From NCBI GenBank assembly GCA_027311105.1, contig DAICZN010000111.1, positions 1 through 32,057 on the forward strand: a stretch of DNA of 32,057 nt, written 5' to 3'. This stretch comes from Gallionella sp. Its GTDB lineage: Bacteria > Pseudomonadota > Gammaproteobacteria > Burkholderiales > Gallionellaceae. Below the pieces are notes generated by a model. That model made no database searches, was not told the origin of the DNA, and was given only the letters and a program-made list of their open reading frames with translations. A program made the translations under genes and the position numbers. Positions 16,430-22,189 of this stretch are shown here, one piece after another. Numbering within the stretch: the stretch's first letter is position 1; each line of letters begins with the position of its first letter.

Positions 16430-18361
16430 TCAATGGGGAACCGATTTGAAGAAATCAACCGCCTCCGCCTCGACCCTGGTTCGTTTCATCGGCGGCAGGC
16501 TTTGCCAGATGCGCTTTCCGTAGGGTTTGCTGATCAAGCGCGGGTCGCAGATCATCAGCACGCCCCTGTCGGTTTCATCCCTGATCAATCTGCCGGCACC
16601 CTGTTTCAGCGTGATGATGGCGCGCGGCAGCTGGTATTCCATGAAGGCGTTGCGTCCCTGCTTGTTGAGTTGCGCGATGCGCGCCGCGAGCACAGGGTCA
16701 TCCGGCGTGGCGAAAGGCAGTTTGTCGATGATTACCAGCGACAAGGCTTCGCCGCGCACATCCACGCCTTCCCAGAACGATTGGCTGCCGAGCAGCACCG
16801 CGTTGCCGAGCGTGCGGAAACGCGTCAGCAACTCGTTGCGCGAGCCCTCGCCCTGCAGCAGCAGCGGGTAGTCCCAGCCGCGCCGGTCGAATTCCGCCTG
16901 CAGTATCTCATGCGCGCGCTGCATCGCGCGCAGGCTGGTGAACAGCAAAAAGGCGCGGCCTTGGCTGGCTTCGATCAGGGGCAGCGCGGCCTGCACCACG
17001 GCCTCGGTGTAGCCTTCACTGTTCGGCTCGGGCAGGTTGGCCGGCACATACAGCAACGCCTGTTCGGCGTAGTTGAACGGGCTGTCCCAGCACGCGGTCC
17101 TGGCCTTGAGCAAGCCCATTTCACCCTGGTAGTGCGAAAAATCCTGCTTTACCGCGAGCGTTGCGGAAGTGAATATCCACGCGCGCGCACTGCCGCCGAT
17201 CTGCTTCTCGAATATCTCCGCAATGGACAGCGGTGTGGTGTTGAGTTGCAGGGAGTGGTGGAAAACTTCCAGCCATCTGACCTGGTCCGGCTCGTCGCCT
17301 GTTTGCCACTTGGCCAATTGTTGCGAAAGCGCCTGAGCCCTCTGCCAGCAGTTCTCCAGGCCTTCGCTGCGCTCCGCCTGTTTCTCCAGCAAGCCGCACA
17401 GCTGCGCCAGCTTCTCGCCCAATATTTTCAACGCGGGCGCGAACTCCTTGAAACTCTCCGTCGCCGTGGCAGGCATGCGCCCTTCCTTCTTGAACACCAG
17501 CCTCAGGTCGCGCGCGGCCTTGTCCATTTCGTCGCAAGCCTTGGGCAACTGCGCAAAATCCTTGGCGGAAACCGCCGCCTCGACGCGCGTGTCGTGCGCC
17601 AGATCGAGCAGCAACGTGGTGGACAATGTTTCGCCGAAGAACAGGCTGGCGGTCTCCGGCAACTGGTGCGCCTCGTCGAAGATCACCGTGTTGCAGGCCG
17701 GCAGCAGTTCCGCCACACCCTCGTCGCGCAGCATCACATCGGCGAAGAACAGATGATGGTTCACCACCACGATGTCCGCCTTCATCGCCTCGGTGCGCGC
17801 CTTGAGCACGAAGCATTCCTTGTGGTTGGGACATTCCTGCCCGAGGCAGTTGTCGCGCGTCGAAGTCACCTGCATCCAGATAGCCGCATTCTCCGGCACA
17901 TCGGCCAGCCCGCTCTTGTCGCCCGAATCGCTGACCTTTGCGTAGCTCTTGATCTTGCCCAGATGCCTGATGTCCTCGCGCGTCTTGAACATACCGTCAG
18001 ATTCGGTGCGCGCCAGATGGTAGTGGCACACATAATTCGAACGCCCCTTGAGCAACGCCACCGACACCGGCGCCTTCAGCGCATCGCGCACCATGGGCAG
18101 GTCCTTCTGGAACAACTGGTCCTGCAGATTCTTGGTTCCGGTGGAGATGATCACCTTGCCGCCGGCCAGCAGCGCCGGCACCAGATAGGCGAAGGTCTTG
18201 CCGGTGCCGGTGCCCGCCTCGACGACCAGTATCGCGTTGTCGCGTATCGCCTCGGCAACCGCGAGCGCCATCTCGCGCTGCTGTGCGCGCGGACGGAACG
18301 ATGCCACCTCTGTGGCAAGCGGACTTTGTTCGGAGAAAAAACGTTCGACTTCGGCGGACAC
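16430..18361 (-). CDS. dinG: ATP-dependent DNA helicase, DinG/YoaA (XPD-like Fe-S) family
   Basis: This is a superfamily 2 helicase that unwinds forked DNA, D-loops or R-loops in the 5'-3' direction and is tied to DNA damage tolerance. The 643-aa protein has Walker A EAGTGTGKT (48-56), TGTKNLQDQLF, DEAH (229-232) and a C-terminal helicase block with QSFWEGVD and QGAGRLIRDETDRG. Four cysteines, C112, C172, C177 and C183 (YVCHYH, NCLGQECPNHKEC), are placed as the XPD/DinG [4Fe-4S] ligands. Length and motifs fit the shorter YoaA type at least as well as E. coli DinG (about 716 aa), so the symbol is tentative. The start is GTG 18361 without a visible Shine-Dalgarno. I found no clear LexA box upstream. 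Confidence 0.88.
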   Translation of the reverse strand: MSAEVERFFSEQSPLATEVASFRPRAQQREMALAVAEAIRDNAILVVEAGTGTGKTFAYLVPALLAGGKVIISTGTKNLQDQLFQKDLPMVRDALKAPVSVALLKGRSNYVCHYHLARTESDGMFKTREDIRHLGKIKSYAKVSDSGDKSGLADVPENAAIWMQVTSTRDNCLGQECPNHKECFVLKARTEAMKADIVVVNHHLFFADVMLRDEGVAELLPACNTVIFDEAHQLPETASLFFGETLSTTLLLDLAHDTRVEAAVSAKDFAQLPKACDEMDKAARDLRLVFKKEGRMPATATESFKEFAPALKILGEKLAQLCGLLEKQAERSEGLENCWQRAQALSQQLAKWQTGDEPDQVRWLEVFHHSLQLNTTPLSIAEIFEKQIGGSARAWIFTSATLAVKQDFSHYQGEMGLLKARTACWDSPFNYAEQALLYVPANLPEPNSEGYTEAVVQAALPLIEASQGRAFLLFTSLRAMQRAHEILQAEFDRRGWDYPLLLQGEGSRNELLTRFRTLGNAVLLGSQSFWEGVDVRGEALSLVIIDKLPFATPDDPVLAARIAQLNKQGRNAFMEYQLPRAIITLKQGAGRLIRDETDRGVLMICDPRLISKPYGKRIWQSLPPMKRTRVEAEAVDFFKSVPH

Positions 18362-18528: not shown

Positions 18529-18596
18529 GTTTGGAGTGTGCAGACATACCTGCGCTCTTAGATAGGATAGCGGCGACACGTCGCCGCACTCCAAAC
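18529..18596 (+). repeat. Palindromic repeat element, copy A
   Basis: This 68-bp unit is bounded by perfect 10-bp inverted ends (GTTTGGAGTG / CACTCCAAAC). Inside are two hairpin modules, a degenerate GCAGAC...CTGCGC and a perfect GCGGCGAC-AC-GTCGCCGC. It is homologous to copy B (20804-20868) in reverse-complement orientation. No protein can be encoded in it. It looks like a REP- or MITE-type non-autonomous element. No target-site duplication is evident. Confidence 0.75.
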
Positions 18597-18675
18597 TCAA
18601 ACCGGTTTCAGCTCGAAGCACAGCAGGAGACGATAGGGTCAGTATCAAATCCCCTTTGTTGAAAGGAGTGTTGAA

Positions 18676-19212
18676 ATGGCCAGGAAAAGATTTCCGATAT
18701 CCCGGGTTTACCGCCTGATGGAGCCCGGGCCTGTGCTGCTGGTCACCACCGCGCACAAGGGCAAGGCGAACATCATGACCCAGTCGTGGCACACGATGAT
18801 GGAGTTTGATCCGCCACTGGTGGGCTGTGTAATCAGCGGGCGTAATCACAGCTTCGATGCATTGGTCGCGACGAAGGAATGCGTGCTCAACATCCCGACT
18901 GTGGAACTGGCGAAGCAGGTGGTGGGCATAGGCAATTGTTCGGGAAAGAAAGTGGACAAGTTCGGGAGATTCGGGCTGACGCCGCTGCCCGCCTCGCGGG
19001 TGGCACCGCCGCTGATCGCGGAGTGCTACGCCAATCTCGAATGCAGGGTGGCCGATACGCGGATGGTGAACAAGTACAATTTCTTCGTGCTGGAAGTGGT
19101 CGGGGCCTGGATCGATACTGCCATGAAGAATCCGCGCACGCTGCACCATCAAGGCAAGGGTGTTTTCATGGTCGCAGGCGACACGATAAAGCTGCCCTCC
19201 AAAATGAAATGA
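18676..19212 (+). CDS. Flavin reductase / flavoredoxin family protein (FMN-binding split barrel)
   Basis: The 178-aa cytoplasmic protein belongs to the split-barrel flavin reductase and flavoredoxin group, which bind FMN and pass electrons from NAD(P)H or ferredoxin-like donors to flavin or other acceptors. Family features are the start RVYRLMEPGPVLLVTT, the flavin-phosphate region KGKANIMTQSWHTMM, PPLVGCVISGRNHS, and ECVLNIPTVELAKQV. It contains no Fe-S motif. ATG 18676 has a strong AAAGGAG Shine-Dalgarno. It is a single plus-strand gene between the dinG gene and the convergent emrB-type gene (9-bp gap), flanked on the left by palindromic repeat copy A. The physiological acceptor cannot be told from sequence. 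Confidence 0.82.
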   Translation: MARKRFPISRVYRLMEPGPVLLVTTAHKGKANIMTQSWHTMMEFDPPLVGCVISGRNHSFDALVATKECVLNIPTVELAKQVVGIGNCSGKKVDKFGRFGLTPLPASRVAPPLIAECYANLECRVADTRMVNKYNFFVLEVVGAWIDTAMKNPRTLHHQGKGVFMVAGDTIKLPSKMK

Positions 19213-19221
19213 GGGCGGGGT

Positions 19222-20763
19222 TCAATGTCCGCCGCGTTTGGCGACGAACGGGGGCTTTGCCCACCAGATCAGCAGGACCAGTGACAGCATCAGCGTGGCG
19301 GAAATCTTCAGGATCTGGTCGGTGGCCATGGTATAGGACTGGACGGTGACCAGGTTTTCCATATAGGCGTAAGCGGTATCGCCCGGCATGCCGAGACGGT
19401 GCAATTGTTTCAGGTAATCGTTTGCCACGGGATTGTATGGCTGGATGTTTTCCACCAGCCTGGCATGGTATTCGGAAGCCTTGCTGGTCCACAGCCAGGT
19501 GGTAATGGCCGTGCCGAAACTGGCGCCCAGATTGCGCATGAAGTTGGAAAGGCCCGAGGCGGCGGCAATACGCTCGGCGGGCAAGCCCGACAGGCCTATC
19601 GTGATCAGCGGCAGGAAGAAGCAGCTGATGCCGATCCCCATGTACAAGCGGCTGATCGCGATCGTCCAATAGTCGATGTCGGGCGTGAAGCGCGCGCTCC
19701 AGTACCCCACCAGCGCAAATACGATGAAACCGAACGTGGTGACGGCGCGCGCGTCAACGCGGGCTATGTTGGCCCCGACGACAGGACCGAGGATGACTGC
19801 CAGCACGCCGCCGAACGCCACGGATTTTCCCGCCCACAGCGAGGTATAGCCCTGATAGGTTTGCAACCACAACGGAATGATCACGACCACGCCAAAAAAA
19901 GCCATCATGCCCAGGAACAGGCATACCGCGCCCACCAGAAAATTGCGCCGCGCGAACAGGCGCAAGTCGACCAATGGGTGTTGTGCATCCAGTTCCCATA
20001 TGACGAACACCAGCAGCGCGAGCGCCGCTGTTGCCGCCAGCGTGATGATGGTGCCGGAGCTGAACCAGTCCAGCTCGTTTCCCTTGTCGAGCAGGATTTG
20101 CAGCGAGCCGATACCGACGATCAGCAGGGACAACCCGATCCAGTCCATTTTCTGGTCGCGCGTGCCGGGCTGAACCGCATCGCGGTGCGATAACATCGCC
20201 GCCACAGAAATACCGACCAGCAGGCCGACCGGCAGGTTGACCAGGAAGATCCAGTGCCAGGAGGCGTTGTCTGTCAGCCAGCCGCCCGCCAGGGGACCGG
20301 CGATCGGCGCGATCACCGTGGTCATCGCCCAGATGCCCAGCGCCAGCCCGCGCTGGTGCGGCGGATAGATAGCCGCGAGCAGCGTTTGCGACAGCGGTAT
20401 CATCGAAGCGCCAAACACCCCCTGAAGCACACGAGCGGCGAGCAACATCGGGAACGAGATCGAGGCCGCGCATAACAGCGAAGCCAGCGTGAACAGCAGG
20501 GTCGCCGCGACGAAGCTGCGCACTTCGCCAAAACGTCCGGCGAGGTATCCCGCCAGCGGCAGCATGATGGCTTCGGCCACCGAATATGAAGTGATGATCC
20601 AGGTGCCCTGCGTCGGGCTGACCGCAAAATCCCCGGCCATCGTGGGCACGGCGACATTGACGATGGTCAGGTCCAGGATGTTCATGAACGAGCCCATGCC
20701 GAGCGCCAGCGTTGCCAGTATCAGTTTGATGCCGCTGAGCGGGGCGATCTGCACGGAATTCAT
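19222..20763 (-). CDS. emrB: DHA2-family drug:H+ antiporter (EmrB/QacA type)
   Basis: This is an inner-membrane exporter of the major facilitator superfamily, 513 aa with about 14 transmembrane helices, the DHA2 (14-TMS) layout. Motif D1 (LDLTIVNVAVPTM) is in helix 1, the basic motif A loop (GYLAGRFGEVRSF) follows helix 2, and the antiporter motif C (APIAGPLAGGW) is in helix 5. With EmrA it would move hydrophobic drugs, uncouplers or fatty-acid-like compounds out of the cell by proton exchange. It follows emrA on the same strand with a 113-bp gap that is largely filled by palindromic repeat copy B. ATG 20763 has only a weak Shine-Dalgarno. No outer-membrane TolC-like gene is next to it. Substrate unknown. 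Confidence 0.9.
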   Translation of the reverse strand: MNSVQIAPLSGIKLILATLALGMGSFMNILDLTIVNVAVPTMAGDFAVSPTQGTWIITSYSVAEAIMLPLAGYLAGRFGEVRSFVAATLLFTLASLLCAASISFPMLLAARVLQGVFGASMIPLSQTLLAAIYPPHQRGLALGIWAMTTVIAPIAGPLAGGWLTDNASWHWIFLVNLPVGLLVGISVAAMLSHRDAVQPGTRDQKMDWIGLSLLIVGIGSLQILLDKGNELDWFSSGTIITLAATAALALLVFVIWELDAQHPLVDLRLFARRNFLVGAVCLFLGMMAFFGVVVIIPLWLQTYQGYTSLWAGKSVAFGGVLAVILGPVVGANIARVDARAVTTFGFIVFALVGYWSARFTPDIDYWTIAISRLYMGIGISCFFLPLITIGLSGLPAERIAAASGLSNFMRNLGASFGTAITTWLWTSKASEYHARLVENIQPYNPVANDYLKQLHRLGMPGDTAYAYMENLVTVQSYTMATDQILKISATLMLSLVLLIWWAKPPFVAKRGGH

Positions 20764-20786
20764 CGGCTTATTTTGAAATTAAGCGG

Positions 20787-20809
20787 CGTGAGTTGCGCTC
20801 ACGTTTTTT
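20787..20809 (+). terminator. Terminator-like hairpin with T6 on the plus strand, beside copy B
   Basis: CGTGAG-TTGCG-CTCACG (6-bp stem, 5-nt loop) is followed at once by TTTTTT on the plus strand. The layout is that of an intrinsic terminator, but both neighbouring genes run on the minus strand. If active it would stop antisense transcription from within emrB. The T6 is also the left end of repeat copy B. Confidence 0.4.
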
Positions 20810-20868
20810 GGAGTGCGGCGACGTGTCGCCACCTTCTGAGCGCAGACACGTCTGCGCACTCCAAAAAA
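20804..20868 (-). repeat. Palindromic repeat element, copy B, between emrA and emrB
   Basis: This 65-bp unit has perfect 12-bp inverted ends (TTTTTTGGAGTG / CACTCCAAAAAA) enclosing GGCGAC-GT-GTCGCC and the perfect hairpin GCGCAGAC-AC-GTCTGCGC. Reverse-complemented, it aligns with copy A along its length. It ends 8 nt from the emrA stop and begins 40 nt from the emrB start, so it is transcribed inside the operon and would fold into a branched RNA structure there. Confidence 0.75.
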
Positions 20869-20876
20869 TGCCCTGT

Positions 20877-22127
20877 TCACTTGCGCCCCAGGTTGCTTGC
20901 GATGATTTGTGCCACAAGCGCGTCGGCTGCCTTGATGTCCTGCGCGTACACCGAAGTGGCGGCGATCGCCCTGGTGCCGGGAAGCACGGTCAAGGCCGCG
21001 CCGCTGCGGTCGTGGGTGTCTATCGTGGCGTCCACGGACAGCCCGATGCGCAACGGGTGCTCCTGCAATTCCCTGCTGTCCAGCGAGATGCGCACCGGCA
21101 GGCGCTGCACGATCTTGACCCAGTTGCCGGTGGCATTTTGCGCCGGCAGCAGCGCGAACGCGGAACCCGTGCCCGGCGCCAGGCCGACCACGCGGCCATG
21201 GAACACGACGGAGTTGCCGTAGAAATCGGAAGTTATCCTGACCTGCTGTCCGATGCGCACGTTACTCAATTCGGTTTCCTTGAAATTGGCATCCAGCCAT
21301 ATCTTGTCGAGCGGCACGATTGCCATCAGCGCATCGCCGGGTTGAACCCATTCCCCGATTTGCACCGGGCGTTTGGCGACCTGTCCGCTGACCGGGGCCA
21401 GCACCCGGGTGCGCGCCAGCGCGAGCGCGGCCTCGCGAACCTTCACCGCGGCGGCGCGCACATTGGGGTGGTTTTCCAGCGAGGTATTGTCCACGCGCGC
21501 GCTGGAAACATCGGCCTGGTCCACGCTTTGGGCGATGGCCGAACTGCCGGCCCGCACCGCGCTGAGCGCCGCATCGTGCTGGGCGCGCGCCGCATCGCGG
21601 GCGGTTTGCGCGATCTGCAGGTTTTCCACCGAGATGAAATTCTGCCTGACCAATGATTCGCGGCGTTTGAATTCGGCCTCGGCCTGGGCCAGGGTCGCTT
21701 CGCTGCTGGCCAGTTCGGCCTGCGCCCGCGCCAGGTCGGCGCGGCGCTGCTCGATCAGCGGCAGGTTTCCCCGGCTGGTTGCATACAGGCCGCGCACCTC
21801 GCGCACCGCCGCAGCCAGCTCCGCTTCCGCGCCGTCCAGTTGCAGGCGCGCGTCGCTGTCGTCAAGTTGCACCAGCAACTGGCCTTCGATCACGGCCTGG
21901 GTGGTGTCCCCGAAAATGGATGCCACGGTCCCACGGGTCAGCGATGTCACCGCAACCACGTCGCCGCCCACATACGCGTCATCGGTGCTGCTGAACCATT
22001 GCCAGGAAAAATACCACCAGCCGAACACTGCGAGCAGAATGATTGCCGTCAATGCGGCGATGCGCAGCAGTATCCCGTTTCTTTTGCCGGGCTGTGCGGT
22101 TCCGGACTGATTTTCCTGGTTGCTCAT
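20877..22127 (-). CDS. emrA: HlyD/EmrA-family membrane fusion (periplasmic adaptor) protein
   Basis: The adaptor links an inner-membrane exporter to an outer-membrane channel. The protein (416 aa from ATG 22127) has a short cytoplasmic tail, one transmembrane helix (LLRIAALTAIILLAVFGWW), and the start of the biotinyl-lipoyl-like region (STDDAYVGGDVVAV, typical of EmrA). An Ala/Glu/Arg-rich alpha-hairpin follows at about 85-200, then the second lipoyl half (TRVLAPVSGQVAKRPVQIGEWV) and a beta-barrel (NFKETELSNVRIGQQV). The ORF track starts 16 codons earlier at ATG 22175; ATG 22127 (MSNQENQS) gives the usual short tail, but neither start has a strong Shine-Dalgarno. Together with the downstream emrB-type gene it forms a pump unit. 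A regulator gene of the MarR type is not adjacent. Confidence 0.88.
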   Translation of the reverse strand: MSNQENQSGTAQPGKRNGILLRIAALTAIILLAVFGWWYFSWQWFSSTDDAYVGGDVVAVTSLTRGTVASIFGDTTQAVIEGQLLVQLDDSDARLQLDGAEAELAAAVREVRGLYATSRGNLPLIEQRRADLARAQAELASSEATLAQAEAEFKRRESLVRQNFISVENLQIAQTARDAARAQHDAALSAVRAGSSAIAQSVDQADVSSARVDNTSLENHPNVRAAAVKVREAALALARTRVLAPVSGQVAKRPVQIGEWVQPGDALMAIVPLDKIWLDANFKETELSNVRIGQQVRITSDFYGNSVVFHGRVVGLAPGTGSAFALLPAQNATGNWVKIVQRLPVRISLDSRELQEHPLRIGLSVDATIDTHDRSGAALTVLPGTRAIAATSVYAQDIKAADALVAQIIASNLGRK

Positions 22128-22189
22128 GGTTGTTGTTGTTCTGGGTTTATGCGTTAGTGTCCGTGATTTTAGCATTCCCGATTATTCCG

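Follow-up and report, generated by a model that had tools for sequence, protein, structure and literature searches.

A GGAG-tagged family of REP doublets in Gallionella and its association with a distinct clade of RAYT transposases

The two palindromic elements in the 32,057-nt window, the whole stretch of DNA analysed here, which is contig C28 of the 1.75-Mb, 65%-complete Gallionella genome G000, are best explained as REP doublets, that is, non-autonomous mobile elements similar to REPINs and BIMEs, of a GGAG-tagged family spread by a RAYT of a distinct clade (probability about 0.93). REP doublets moved by a RAYT are a known kind of element. The GGAG-tagged family itself is apparently undescribed: we did not find its sequence described as a known repeat in the literature, and the GGAGTG repeat is absent from the text of PMC3733652. 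The core idea of an earlier sequence-only reading of the window, namely a dispersed REP-like element with a matching RAYT and hairpins under selection, is supported by the analysis.

Doublet A (66 bp, 18530..18595, minus strand) lies between the end of the helicase gene region (helicase ORF 16430-18361, minus strand) and the flavin reductase gene (18676-19212, plus strand; Pfam Flavin_Reduct), and occupies the same place in the sister genome G074. Doublet B (65 bp, 20804..20868, plus strand), which has T6/A6 ends, lies between the stop of the gene for an emrA-type HlyD membrane-fusion protein (20877..22175, minus strand; Pfam HlyD_3 and HlyD_D23) and the start of that for an emrB-type MFS transporter (19222-20763, minus strand; Pfam MFS_1). 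The sequence-only reading had correctly placed the two copies as a pair bracketing flavin reductase and emrB, and its description of GGAGTG/CACTCC ends around two internal hairpin modules was borne out. Both elements have the layout TTTGGAGT - palindrome - spacer - palindrome - ACTCCAAA; the palindromes are of two types, GCGGCGACnnGTCGCCGC and GCGCAGACnnGTCTGCGC, and each element contains one of each. The type 1 REP of doublet A (18570..18592, minus strand; GGAGT followed by GCGGCGAC GT GTCGCCGC) has a perfect 8-bp stem and matches the pattern exactly, as does the type 2 REP of doublet B (20840..20862, minus strand; GGAGT followed by GCGCAGAC GT GTCTGCGC). The type 1 REP of doublet B (20810..20832, plus strand; GGAGT followed by GCGGCGAC GT GTCGCCAC) has one mismatch to the pattern, and the type 2 REP of doublet A, read from the window sequence, is decayed (18533..18555, plus strand; GGAGT followed by GTGCAGAC AT ACCTGCGC). 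The two had been called inverted copies, and they indeed share the strongest repeat in the whole window, a 24-nt pair (18572-18595 and 20807-20830) that is 100% complementary and far above chance, but the label is less informative than it sounds because each unit is itself nearly palindromic. The proposed conservation of the hairpins as palindromes holds only in part for this pair, in which copy A has a decayed GCGCAGAC-type hairpin and copy B is broken at one base, and clearly for the family.

Across the family, the REP unit consists of GGAGT and an 8-2-8 palindrome (arm, 2 nt, arm), usually in a hetero-doublet of about 53-55 bp. A partner was detectable for 19 of the 29 seed REPs and belonged to the other type in 18 of these 19, and doublet length peaked at 53 and 55 bp in a set that includes loci picked by the doublet pattern. 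The 8-2-8 geometry was also fixed among REPs that were gathered near RAYT genes on the head alone. Each doublet pairs two oppositely oriented REPs across a short spacer, as REPINs and BIMEs do, and the two REP types can pair together to form one long hairpin. The canonical 5' GT[AG]G tag is absent from the hairpin foot; instead, GGAG was present 1 nt from the foot in 25/25 distinct REP sequences, which had been collected through a GGAGTG search. Stem changes are compensatory and the palindrome is maintained. Among heads with at least 5/8 pairs, a selection that favours pairing but not two-sided change, 92.5% of stem cells were paired versus 77.7% in shuffles, two-sided changes occurred in 27 cells versus 9.1, and stem covariation reached 0.369 versus 0.130, with 0/500 shuffles as high. 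The covariation was destroyed when the stem partner was slid. These compensatory changes support the proposal that the hairpins are under selection.

Further copies are present in the genome that contains the window, at about seven sites (two on C28 and one each on C109, C61, C67, C121 and C63); A, B and the C109 copy are doublets, C67 carries a decayed doublet, and the others read as single REPs. Within the genus, an exact 16-mer occurs in 9/37 genomes; the reversed 16-mer was absent from those nine and matched once among the 61 genomes covered, and that genome lacks the element. Exact matches to the long pattern fell mostly in genomes titled Gallionella or Gallionellaceae. Genomes reached from the collection scan have 5-29 motif matches each, including 20 and 23 in two genomes titled Verrucomicrobia, 27 in a Desulfosudis-titled MAG (spread over numerous contigs as long as 284 kb) and 24 in a Sumerlaeota-titled MAG, the phylum labels being those of the record titles alone. 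A pattern search of about 398 other Pseudomonadota genomes returned three single one-mismatch matches, no more than the control and at chance level. The family is therefore sporadic yet widely scattered, and its copies occupy several to many non-orthologous sites per genome, a dispersal typical of REPINs and BIMEs. Copy number is low compared with the usual REP family, for which more than 100 copies per genome is a usual, although not strict, feature (PMC2817692). On contig C125 of genome G011 (L038 and L045), tandem GTGCCGGTGCCGGAACAAAAG units directly adjoin two near-identical element copies about 1 kb apart.

A first cognate RAYT was found in genome G015 (L157:1830-2363, minus strand), between arrays of TTTGGAGTGC palindromes. 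Searching with its protein revealed seven more, 63-75% identical to this reference, in G014, G029, G003, a Nitrosomonadales MAG, a Gallionellaceae MAG, a Desulfosudis MAG and Verrucomicrobium AV43. GGAGTGC palindromes lie on both sides of 8/8 of these genes, mostly less than 200 bp away, and both single REPs and head-to-tail arrays occur around them. The palindrome (at least 6/8 stem, fixed geometry) is present at 46 of the 63 GGAGTG sites in the cognate loci that were examined, compared with 0/53 such sites in other RAYT loci. The eight proteins form one clade (support 100/99, in a tree with few outgroups and long branches), with an invariant NHYH motif and catalytic Tyr. All eight match both Pfam Y1_Tnp and NCBIfam REP_Tyr_transpos, the first member scoring over the cut-off of the latter, and the nearest PDB sequence is 4er8, TnpAREP. 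The AlphaFold model is of modest confidence (pLDDT 58), and its 29 best PDB fold matches are all Y1 transposases. Across the 37 genus genomes, the RAYT is present in 4/9 with the REP and 0/28 without it (Fisher p = 0.002, a guide only, since these genomes are related to one another). At four loci (L162, L163, L193 and L195) the open frame of the cognate RAYT continues across the REPs that precede it. Some annotated starts may consequently be wrong and take in residues encoded by the REPs.

The matching RAYT suggested by the sequence-only reading thus exists in eight other genomes, embedded in palindromes of this family, but it was not found in G000 (65% complete), in its sister G074 (100% complete) or in G107. 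The RAYT appears to have been lost in the lineage of the window, and on this distribution the window copies are probably orphans, immobile relics of past activity. An order-wide RAYT search of 300 genomes, none of them a known carrier, found no cognate, and a plasmid search gave only two weak relatives, one with a GTAG palindrome. The cognate was not among the loci returned by a first genus-wide Pfam survey, its score lying right at the Pfam cut-off. The two RAYTs that G000 does encode were ruled out as cognates, being flanked by other REPs. One (L158, G000:C102:7000-11100) has GTAGGAGCGGGC-type palindromes at 1939-2002 and 2699-2716, indicating that a second REP family coexists in this genome; the other (L159, G000:C44:1-3000) has GTAGGGTGGGCAC inverted repeats at 81-120 and 711-751, and a one-mismatch copy of the head of that repeat occurs at 40-52 of the window. 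A RAYT of Verrucomicrobium AV71 (L196, 42% identical) was also ruled out, as it has a GTAG palindrome and not GGAGTG.

Comparison with relatives revealed insertion polymorphism. The emrA-emrB site is empty in eight relatives, where the two genes share a GTGA overlap. Only G000 and G074 (EmrB 98% identical) have a doublet there, exactly at the overlap, and the junction alignment shows the emrB start moved further downstream. GTGA stands on both sides of copy B, which at this one site is compatible with a duplication or with none. In the E2 gene on C109 of G000, a doublet occupies the linker that follows the lipoyl domain without closing the reading frame; one half of this copy is present in G107 (97% identical) and none of it in G074. 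The differences at the E2 linker and at emrA-emrB arose by gain or loss between genomes that are very closely related. For copy A, none of the relatives compared keeps both flanks without the element. At the emrA-emrB junction of another genome (L226, G032:C31) there is a different repeat, CCTTCGACAAGCTCAGGGCGAACGG, in inverted copies within an intergenic gap of about 540 bp, which makes this site a possible hotspot for insertion. A more distant Gallionella (L252, G064:C1) has an apparent further element insertion near the E2 linker, at 1466-1640, and the Ala/Pro linker may tolerate the element repeatedly.

Could the copies have been moved by something other than a RAYT? A MITE-like element with terminal inverted repeats (TTTGGAGTGC..GCACTCCAAA), mobilised by the DDE transposase of an unrelated IS, would account for whole doublets with inverted ends and, at the single site of copy B, for the flanking 4-bp GTGA as a possible target duplication. 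It is nevertheless very improbable, given that REPs near RAYT genes are also found singly or in head-to-tail arrays, that the RAYT is physically embedded among the palindromes, and that each half is a palindrome in its own right, with compensatory changes. Slightly less probable still is that the elements are fixed regulatory RNA or DNA structures, such as an intercistronic mRNA stabiliser, kept by function and not mobility. Copy B does lie inside the emrAB operon with a very stable predicted RNA fold (-42.4 kcal/mol, z -7.7), and both copies persist in G074; however, the genomic contexts are unrelated, presence is sporadic, copies stand at non-orthologous sites in relatives, coding sequence has been invaded and close relatives have empty sites, all of which argues against a fixed structure. 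In addition, no Rfam family matched the elements at the gathering score, which also favours the core idea of the sequence-only reading, and an intrinsic terminator scan called neither element. Copy B could have acquired a local regulatory role after insertion; whatever effect the window copies have today would be confined to their surroundings, copy B standing as a stable hairpin between the emrAB cistrons, whose ends overlap in relatives.

The sequence-only reading also held that recombination between the copies could invert or delete the flavin reductase-emrB block. The repeats are indeed perfect over 24 bp, inverted and 2.2 kb apart, but 24 bp is short for RecA-dependent exchange. In G074, which shares 95.5% DNA identity across 4.5 kb, both copies are retained and their order with the block is unchanged, and no rearranged block was seen in the relatives compared. 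The claim is not upheld, and a role as a homologous inversion or deletion site is about as improbable as a fixed regulatory function. Set against the REP-doublet reading are the failure to find the cognate RAYT in G000, G074 and G107, the low copy number, a tag other than GT[AG]G, movement deduced from insertion polymorphism, and a link between tag and enzyme residues that is a correlation.

By analogy with the TnpAREP enzymes of E. coli and Stenotrophomonas, the RAYT of the distinct clade, an HUH/Y1 transposase, would recognise the single-stranded hairpin together with a GGAG guide, and would cut and rejoin the hairpin DNA, allowing doublets to reach new sites. The published REP tag is GT[AG]G (PMC6006769, PMC8266576), with degenerate forms GYAG, GYRG, GTRG, GTMG and GTGG reported (PMC3733652), and E. 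coli TnpAREP contacts GTAG through W94, Q95, E100, H101 and R104 (PMC6006769). Aligned via the PDB sequence match, the cognate clade has W, Y/F, D, S and T at these five positions, with W, D, S and T invariant (n=8), whereas the two GTAG-associated RAYTs of G000 retain H and R there (WQRRFWEHHIR; WSPAYHDHALR). The E-to-D change alone is also known in GTAG subclasses. The pairing of the GGAG tag with altered guide-contact residues is suggestive, as a correlation only. We put forward tentatively, at somewhat below even odds, the joint reading that a GGAG-recoded RAYT clade carried a near-unchanged REP pair across phyla (hosts being Gallionellaceae, Nitrosomonadales and the Desulfosudis-, Verrucomicrobia- and Sumerlaeota-titled genomes), that the REP has been more constant than its transposase, and that the contact changes explain the tag. 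REPs have been described as species-specific and GT[AG]G-tagged, so a different tag, a matching enzyme change and the same pair in distant bacteria would make this family a natural experiment on how RAYTs choose hairpins and on whether REP systems pass from one phylum to another. It also provides clean empty and filled sites, one of which breaks the stop/start overlap of two efflux genes.

The elements can be compared with several known systems. Like REPINs and BIMEs (Bertels & Rainey 2011, PMC3116915), they consist of two inverted REPs with a short spacer that can form one long hairpin, show compensatory changes, are mostly intergenic and RAYT-linked, and have singlets that look like remnants; unlike them, they carry GGAG in place of GTAG/GTGG, combine halves of different REP types, are low in copy number, and have near-identical REPs in genomes assigned to different phyla. 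Small palindromic elements in frame within genes, resembling the E2 linker copy, are also represented by the Rickettsia RPE as cited in PMC3733652; in comparison with that cited account, most GGAG copies are not in frame and a cognate transposase is known. The GTAG- and CGTC-tagged REP superfamilies (PMC3733652) are similar in being tagged short palindromes with hetero-dimers and insertions in flexible protein parts. The enzyme resembles RAYT/TnpAREP (PMC2817692, PMC6006769, PDB 4er8) as an HUH and Tyr Y1 transposase of about 177 aa, and its gene, flanked on both sides by cognate REPs, resembles a REPtron (PMC2817692, PMC6006769). By its motifs, NHYH, W[YF] and YV..NP, it is nearest by description to the small subclass 2.8, in which GT[AG]G is the REP tag described.
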